Of a DNA stretch of 64,000 nucleotides, positions 31,481 to 32,555 are shown piece after piece. The stretch is from NCBI RefSeq assembly GCF_030408355.1, contig NZ_CP046606.1, positions 620,001 to 684,000 on the forward strand, given 5' to 3'. The translations under genes and the position numbers were made by a program. The notes beneath the pieces were generated by a model. It was not told where the DNA came from. It saw only the letters and a program-made list of their open reading frames with translations, and did no database searches. Every line of letters starts with the position of its first letter. Positions within the stretch are counted from its first letter, which is position 1. The stretch comes from Corynebacterium afermentans subsp. afermentans. GTDB taxonomy: Bacteria; Actinomycetota; Actinomycetes; Mycobacteriales; Mycobacteriaceae.

Positions 31481-31599
31481 TGTCGGTGGTTGATGGCGGC
31501 GGGGAAACGCCCGGTCCCATTCCGAACCCGGAAGCTAAGCCCGCCCGCGCCGATGGTACTGCCCCCGGGAGGGAGTGGGAGAGTAGGTTACCGCCGACC
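31481..31599 (+). rRNA. 5S ribosomal RNA
   Basis: GTCGGTGGT at the 5' end pairs with ACCGCCGAC at the 3' end. The interior has CCCGGTCCCATTCCGAACCC and GAAGCTAAGCCC, standard 5S landmarks. It lies 165 bases after 23S and completes the operon. Confidence 0.94.
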
Positions 31600-31619
31600 C
31601 AACAACTTCACACAACACA

Positions 31620-31662
31620 CCCGCCGCACCAACACTGATGGTGCGGCGGGTGCTTTGCTATG
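31620..31662 (+). terminator. rRNA operon terminator
   Basis: CCCGCCGCACCA (31620-31631) pairs perfectly with TGGTGCGGCGGG (31639-31650), loop of seven, followed by TGCTTTGCT. It is placed 20 bases after 5S. Confidence 0.85.
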
Positions 31663-31827
31663 CCTGGCCCGAACCCACCTGGCTAGACTCCGCATTGCGG
31701 ACAACACCAGATACACCAACTATTGGCGCTTACCCACGAAAGTCCGGGGTGCAATTCCGCCTTGCGGACAACCACACCCGCACCCATCATTGGTGCACAC
31801 CAACCAATTCCGTGCCCGGGCCTCACT

Positions 31828-32085
31828 CCGCATTGCGGACAACCACGGCGGCACCCATCATTGGCGCACACCCATAAAATCCCCGCGGCGGAACCACCCG
31901 GCGGGCCGCGACCTGCCAACTAGGGGCCACATAGGTCGCGGGGACAGCACACGCAGCCACGATGACGCCGACAGTGGGGCGAAAGTCGAGTACCGGACGT
32001 CGAGTACGCCCGCGTACACCGACGGACTCGACCTCCACTACTCGACCAACAACGCACCCACAACAACCCAGGTACGGTCCACACT
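31828..32085. repeat. Large tandem unit, copy 1 (module + structured block)
   Basis: Contains the 70-base module, then hairpin CGCGACCT (31907-31914)/AGGTCGCG (31933-31940), then a nested inverted repeat at 31985-32046: outer GTCGAGTA/TACTCGAC, inner GTCGAGT/ACTCGAC and a tip GTACGC-CC-GCGTAC. All elements recur in copy 2. Confidence 0.85.
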
Positions 32086-32337
32086 CCGTATTGCGGACAA
32101 CCCCAGATGCACCCATCATTGGCGCACACCCATGAAAACCCCGGGGCGAAATCACCCGGCGGGGCGCGACCTTCCAACTAGGGGCCACATAGGTCGCGGG
32201 GACAGCAGCAACGACGATGCCTACTGCGGGACGAAAGTCGAGTACCGGACGTCGAGTACGCCCGCGTACACCGACGAACTCGACCTCCACTACTCGACCA
32301 ACAACGCACCCATGAAAGCCTGGGGCCGGGCCCGACT
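32086..32337. repeat. Large tandem unit, copy 2 (module + structured block)
   Basis: Second copy of the ~255-base unit. Hairpin arms CGCGACCT (32165-32172) and AGGTCGCG (32191-32198) flank an 18-base loop that differs from copy 1 by one base. The nested inverted repeat lies at 32237-32298 and also differs by a single base. The linker between the two structures is much less conserved. Confidence 0.85.
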
Positions 32338-32555
32338 CCGCATTGCGGACAACTGCGCCTGCACCAACAATGGGTACCCACCCACGAAAGCCTGGGCCCC
32401 ACCAAAACCCGCATTGCGGACAACCACGGCGGCACCCATCATTGGCCCACGCACACGAATGCTTAGCCCGGCACTCCCAGCGCCGGTACCCCACGAACCG
32501 GCGGGTGATCGATCAATCGCCCCGACCGAATTCTCCACCCACGGAAACAGAGGCG

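Follow-up and report, generated by a model that had tools for sequence, protein, structure and literature searches.

A mosaic of REP-like palindromic modules behind an rrn operon of Corynebacterium afermentans, with a DUF222-HNH nuclease as candidate partner

The array that follows the rrn operon in the window (the whole stretch of 64,000 nucleotides analysed here, positions 620,001 to 684,000 of contig NZ_CP046606.1) is probably, although by no means certainly, a mosaic of dispersed REP-like palindromic modules, partnered by a DUF222-HNH (13E12-type) nuclease and not by a Y1 transposase. Dyads of the array's kind stand in front of such a nuclease gene, which suggests that the enzyme and the repeats form one system. 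The initial annotation had proposed a structured RNA locus, a boundary element of the rrn operon or a decayed mobile repeat, and its interpretation is partly supported. The last of these options comes nearest; most dyads, however, are well preserved, and the repeat family is linked to a DUF222-HNH gene.

The array behind the rrn operon

The array lies directly after the rRNA terminator, as originally described, with dyad 1 of its first module starting 38 bases past a terminator-like hairpin, and the six module copies first read at 31690, 31757, 31828, 32086, 32338 and 32409 are correctly placed (Table 1). In register, the modules are spaced by 67, 71, 258, 252 and 71 bases. A tandem duplication of about 255 bases had been claimed, and Tandem Repeats Finder recovers it with a 252-base period (31816-32353, 2.1 copies, 86% matches). 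The module as first described needs one correction, in that its second half is not a single sequence, being either CACCAAYNATTGG or CACCCATCATTGG. A pattern joining both module halves gave no match in the window, where the local variants did not fit it. Chance does not account for the array, since CCGCATTGCGGACAAC occurs 44 times in the genome at up to two mismatches and its reversed control twice. The array was also said to hold no gene, and indeed no conserved reading frame is seen across the repeat copies; the spacings of 67 and 71 would shift the frame from copy to copy, and the longest open frame also spans the 5S gene.

Table 1. Features of the array and of the rrn operon end that precedes it (window positions)
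Feature	Position	Strand	Evidence or remark
5S rRNA, end of rrn operon	31482..31599	+	Rfam RF00001, 95.6 bits
Intrinsic-terminator-like hairpin before array	31618..31652	+	inverted repeat, 14 pairs, 11 G-C
Module 1, dyad 1 TCCGCATTGCGGA at 31689	31685..31742	+	model R1 72.3 bits; perfect palindrome
Module 2, dyad 1 loop changed: CCGCCTTGCGG	31752..31809	+	model R1 68.6 bits
Module 3, perfect dyad 1 at 31827	31823..31880	+	model R1 75 bits
Block B copy 1, long spacer between modules 3 and 4	31881..32080	+	
Long palindrome of GTCGAGTA within block B copy 1, second dispersed repeat	31985..32046	.	
Module 4, CCGTATTGCGG, dyad with one G-T	32081..32138	+	model R1 70.6 bits
Block B copy 2	32139..32332	+	
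Long palindrome of GTCGAGTA, copy 2	32237..32298	.	sequence and nucleotide matches
Module 5, perfect dyad 1 at 32337	32333..32390	+	model R1 71.3 bits
Module 6	32404..32461	+	model R1 60.1 bits

It is very improbable that the array is a structured RNA or a terminator-like element transcribed from the rrn tail. Here and in three related genomes the modules do lie on the rRNA strand, and block B and spacer X (described below) fold as hairpins in folds made without a shuffle control, but covariation lends this reading little support and no Rfam family matches at its gathering score. RNAalifold keeps helix 1 alone, which hardly varies, and covarying base pairs of the kind expected for a structured RNA were not found. 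Four of five measures, each reached by 160 or more of the shuffles, did not set a two-helix structure apart from column shuffles; its covariation score was weakly above them (26 of 500 shuffles as high). The structured RNA was therefore rejected on the RNAalifold result, the shuffle-like scores and the Rfam search, and the remark that the array is well conserved where it could form structure finds, as a statement about RNA, little backing in RNAalifold or the shuffles. Modules on the opposite strand near the rrn operons of two further genomes, described in the next section, also count against an RNA.

A dispersed module family

The module is about 58 bp long and consists of the dyad TCCGCATTGCGGA, a spacer of 8-9 bp and a second dyad. 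Aligned nearly without gaps, 40 of the 43 genome copies give the consensus ACTCCGCATTGCGGACAAY, 8-9 variable bases, CACC(A/C)AYNATTGG and a looser tail; the first dyad lies between ACT and ACAAY. Over 37 distinct rows, dyad 1 carries 1.79 bits per column, the spacer 0.57 and dyad 2 1.36. The 43 copies were counted with a covariance model (R1) built from this genome's own copies. All four rrn operons of the genome are followed by an array, with 25 modules no more than 2.7 kb past the respective 5S gene, and 18 modules lie elsewhere. Some examples of these other sites are upstream of rpsF, behind the gyrA-DUF3566 pair, beside a protein kinase gene and beside the nuclease gene, with further ones at 2.287, 2.305, 2.313 and 2.316 Mb; many of the dispersed modules cluster at 2.27-2.36 Mb. 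Crude ORF calls covered 16 of the 18: 11 modules touch no ORF, 4 coincide in part with low-scoring ORFs (99-104 aa, taken as spurious), and the remaining one overlaps a DUF488 ORF at its 5' end. The modules are thus palindromic repeats dispersed in intergenic regions, as REP elements are. Sites linked to tRNA genes were considered and dropped, tRNA genes being present in 7 of 49 scanned loci, three of which are the locus behind gyrA. A family of proteins of about 278 aa, with no Pfam match at cut-off, occurs at three places among this genome's loci (L018:9678-10514, L018:11700-12344 and L190:2323-2469), and has relatives beside modules in other genomes (L157, L161, L170).

In three related genomes (G049, G187 and G186), modules on the rRNA strand follow 11 of 12 rrn operons, which makes 15 of 16 with the present genome. 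This much agrees with the proposed boundary element, but exclusivity does not hold: copies recur behind all four rrn operons, the alternative raised at the outset, and yet 18 of the 43 also lie elsewhere. The place behind rrn is not general either, because near-rrn modules are on the opposite strand in G016 and G162 and no module match was found at any of the four rrn flanks of the dyad-rich G118. With the covariance model at E <= 0.001 and strict filters, 28 of 242 Corynebacterium genomes match (not the same 28 as in the dyad count given below), and all 25 stretches retrieved from named genomes by a pattern scan come from Corynebacterium. Long tandem palindrome arrays away from rrn operons were observed in G118 (L173, L176, L178), G021 (L181, L182) and G184 (L188), those of G118 alternating with a second palindrome, e.g. 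ACTCTGCAGCTGCAGAGT.

The repeats gave no nucleotide match in plasmid or phage collections, and an origin from either was set aside on this ground. No known MITE or IS fragment, the identity named at the outset as the one to exclude, was identified in the same searches.

Compared with the window's array, a 462-base piece of the array at 1.896 Mb is 98% identical and a 449-base piece of the one at 2.248 Mb is 86% identical, as would be expected if an rrn flank had been duplicated and homogenised by exchange between rrn operons. Taken as the full account, in which the repeats have no partner and their link to the nuclease is shared ancestry, this is improbable: 18 modules lie away from rrn, and in other lineages palindromes of other sequence are repeated upstream of nuclease genes.

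The DUF222-HNH nuclease and its co-occurrence with the dyad

The dyad is found just upstream of a gene for an HNH nuclease of the DUF222/13E12 type (C1:2355468-2356790, outside the window), and in this genome three modules lie within about 630 bp upstream of it. The nuclease was first noticed as an HNH gene recurring beside palindromes in loci chosen for the palindrome alone. Such a gene also lies beside the palindromes where the array units otherwise differ, at one locus each in G118, G021, G154 and G172, for which 7, 3, 3 and 2 palindrome-picked loci were examined, respectively. A small second palindrome, TTATAGC-AAT-CGCTATAA or similar, was observed between the dyads and the nuclease start in L017 and L182. 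The neighbouring gene 17a was considered as a partner and rejected, being present in 10 of 14 nuclease loci (some of them duplicates) and not found in the four most distant.

The protein matches PF01844 (HNH) at 33.8 bits against a cut-off of 21.4, while DUF222 reaches 18.4 bits, below its cut-off of 24.4; many relatives carry both HNH and DUF222 in precomputed assignments (PF02720). All 49 aligned nuclease sequences keep H363, H364, N378, H387 and four cysteines unchanged, and the partner gene encodes an HNH domain whose catalytic residues are intact. A stretch resembling a helix-turn-helix can be read in the N-terminal part, where Pfam gives a match to HTH_IclR at E 0.18. A profile search against solved structures returned weak matches, mostly to HNH parts. 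The plasmid and phage collections each contain one weak relative, on a Rhodococcus plasmid (27% identity) and in a phage record (25% of the query covered); no such palindrome was seen by eye in the short gap before the Rhodococcus plasmid gene. This genome has 7 matches to genes of the DUF222-HNH type in all. Two paralogs have palindromes of their own (ATGCAGCTGCAT at C1:1571941-1573221 and CTGCGGCCGCAG at C1:979271-980494), and of two paralogs searched for DUF222 one gave a sub-threshold match and one none.

Across 242 Corynebacterium genomes, the dyad and the nuclease occur together. At least three exact copies of TCCGCATTGCGGA are present in 28 genomes, the reversed control occurring at most once per strand, and a nuclease match at E <= 1e-110 is present in 34, with weaker DUF222-HNH matches (E <= 0.001) in 221. 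The two sets share 27 genomes, and 207 have neither. The 28th dyad genome is G118, whose nuclease gene is reported as two adjoining matches, so that every one of the 28 dyad-bearing genomes has a close relative of the nuclease. The Fisher p of 3e-28 for this association is inflated by the kinship of the genomes.

A test set beforehand held that the nuclease genomes short of the dyad, seven in number, should bear another palindrome upstream. Five of these (G071, G151, G114, G220 and G035) have 2-4 copies of TCCGCAGTGCGGA in the 600 bp before the nuclease gene and 4-7 in the whole genome, and G208 has TGCGCAATGCGCA twice upstream of its nuclease gene. In G104 the original dyad occurs twice, once in the 600 bp before the gene and once within the gene match itself. 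Four other genomes reach at least three copies of TCCGCAGTGCGGA; G067 and G096 have the nuclease subfamily, and G009, with partial matches of 45-47%, and G097 fall outside it by the threshold. In G096, TCCGCATTGCGGA and TCCGCAGTGCGGA occur together, and TCCGCAGTGCGGA stands twice at 130-200 bp upstream of one nuclease gene, which further weakens the case for repeats without a partner.

Palindromes upstream of nuclease genes and their lineages

Among 49 hand-picked nuclease genes, a repeated palindrome core lies within 600 bp upstream of 32, downstream of 2 and inside none. With ten loci first seen through their palindromes left out, the counts are 24 of 39 upstream and 2 of 39 downstream, compared with 0-1 of 39 in each of 20 shuffles; merging near-copies leaves 14 of 29, and 15 of the 39 have no repeated perfect palindrome upstream. 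The upstream palindrome is often different from the TCCGCATTGCGGA dyad. DUF222-HNH genes thus share with REP systems the presence of repeats right beside the partner gene.

The type of palindrome follows the lineage of the protein. When the eight types of 32 labelled genes are mapped on the tree of the nucleases, 7 changes suffice, which is the minimum; the shuffled mean is 18.0, and none of 200 shuffles was as low. The commonest type, TCCGCAATGCGGA, needs 3 changes and CTGCAGCTGCAG does not form one clade. This fit agrees with recognition but is no proof of it, because genes pass on their upstream regions together with themselves, which would produce much of the fit, and near-copies strengthen it further. 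Genome labels were tried as a contrast for the tree and dropped (26 changes against a minimum of 23).

Seven of the eight types have the form nnGCA-n(n)-TGCnn. Of 22 proteins with odd-length dyads, which are related among themselves, 20 have His at one position of the helix-turn-helix-like stretch; none of the 10 proteins with even-length dyads, likewise related, has it, their residue being Phe, Tyr or Arg. This pairing of residue and dyad length may be a hint of a specificity code.

The upstream palindromes could be operators only. In the broader form of this idea, the dyads are operator or architectural sites at which the DUF222-HNH protein or another dimeric regulator binds, so as to control the nuclease gene and to mark or shape the rrn flanks, rpsF and the gyrA region, and they are kept by selection on the sites without copying themselves. 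Such a role would agree with the position of the dyads shortly upstream of nuclease genes and with the stronger conservation of dyad 1 than of the spacer, and the modules at rpsF and gyrA keep dyad 1 nearly unchanged despite differing flanks. It is nevertheless judged unlikely, as copy numbers and layouts at the same locus vary between relatives, unlinked loci have spacers in common, and the flanking genes examined show no common theme.

Mosaic growth of the loci

The loci grow by module-bounded cassettes, as is shown by places where a module-spacer-module arrangement stands and relatives have a single module. At the rpsF locus, G186 and G002 have a single module, and G000, G049 and G187 have two modules separated by a spacer, X. 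Behind the gyrA-DUF3566 pair, one module is present in the readable flank of G000, G186, G002 and G038, and in G187 a spacer of type X again stands between two modules. These two unlinked G187 loci match each other over 225 columns, with ends within 5 bases of the outer module edges. X-like spacers also lie between modules in the rrn arrays of this genome and its relatives, and modules also flank block B of the window.

Spacer X is about 110 bases long and forms a MITE-like hairpin with inverted arms (L016:3278-3388, L158:2292-2401, L013:3450-3559). In the limited set of loci searched, most of which had been chosen for their modules, its copies lie between modules in nearly all cases, judged by coordinates. 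The 62-base palindrome of GTCGAGTA repeats in block B is a second dispersed repeat, which also occurs at G000:C1 39156, 40277, 307162 and 1321865 and behind rrn operons of another genome (L138-L140). In the array of the rrn operon at 1.15 Mb, a gene for an IS30-family transposase is inserted in this palindrome of block B (L015:6064-7752).

Proposed mechanism and significance

In the preferred reading, of REP-like modules with a nuclease partner, the core unit would be the nuclease gene with its upstream dyads, and the dispersed modules would be its sites, by analogy with REPtrons (PMC8266576). The nuclease, probably dimeric through its N-terminal helix-turn-helix-like stretch, would recognise its cognate dyad and nick or cut there. 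Repair from another module-flanked locus would then copy modules and spacers into the site, and palindromes would spread in this way. Behind rrn operons, past the terminator and with no gene present, copies would presumably cost little, and exchange among the operons, which is suggested by the 462 bases of two arrays that are 98% identical, may copy arrays from one to another and could reach all four.

Some observations count against this reading. Most of the genome's own modules lie behind rrn operons, and no more than 3 lie next to the nuclease gene. The two modules that enclose the gyrA spacer in G187 resemble the resident module, an outcome that simple break repair at dyad 1 does not predict. 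The 15 nuclease genes with no repeated perfect palindrome upstream, and the TCCGCAGTGCGGA copies of G009 and G097, also speak against it. Dyad 2 lies outside what it explains.

A more general proposal is that DUF222-HNH nucleases each recognise and spread a palindrome of their own, forming a Y1-independent counterpart of REPtrons with a readable specificity code; this is put forward tentatively, as somewhat less probable than its converse. The preferred reading of the array would give DUF222-HNH (13E12) proteins a testable role and, if true, would account for the repeat arrays at rrn flanks in this clade. If the nuclease does spread its palindrome, REP-like systems would rest on two or more unrelated classes of enzyme, and sequence specificity could be read directly from the naturally occurring pairs of protein and palindrome.

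Comparison with known systems

A search of the open-access literature found no paper on these palindromes or on DUF222-HNH proteins with cognate palindromes. The 13E12 repeats of mycobacteria are said to lack a defined biological function (PMC13061034). REP13E12 and the 13E12 family share the protein type of the present system, with HNH above its cut-off and DUF222 precomputed for many relatives, but arrays of cognate palindromes are not described in the parts of the 13E12 literature consulted.

The array resembles MITEs and IS fragments in its short non-coding repeats, its mosaic spacers and the inverted arms of the spacer X hairpin. Unlike them, it has modules that repeat a dyad in direct orientation and could not be linked to any transposase; the IS30-family gene of one array lies within block B.

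REP palindromes are accompanied by a GTAG or CGTC tag (PMC3733652), whereas the modules have neither tag, their consensus flanks being ACT and ACAAY, and this genome's array copies are direct repeats, most of them behind rrn operons. A classical REP system with a Y1 (HUH) transposase was rejected, since PF01797 has no match in this genome, in a search whose control was positive in 5 of 14 known genomes. REPtrons, as described in PMC8266576, consist of dispersed short palindromes with copies close to a nuclease-type gene and with cognate repeat types for the members of a protein family. The present system is like them in its dispersed short palindromes, in the copies next to a nuclease-type gene and in the cognate types for protein-family members, and unlike them in its partner, which is an HNH protein here and a Y1 (HUH) transposase in the REPtron (RAYT/TnpA-REP).
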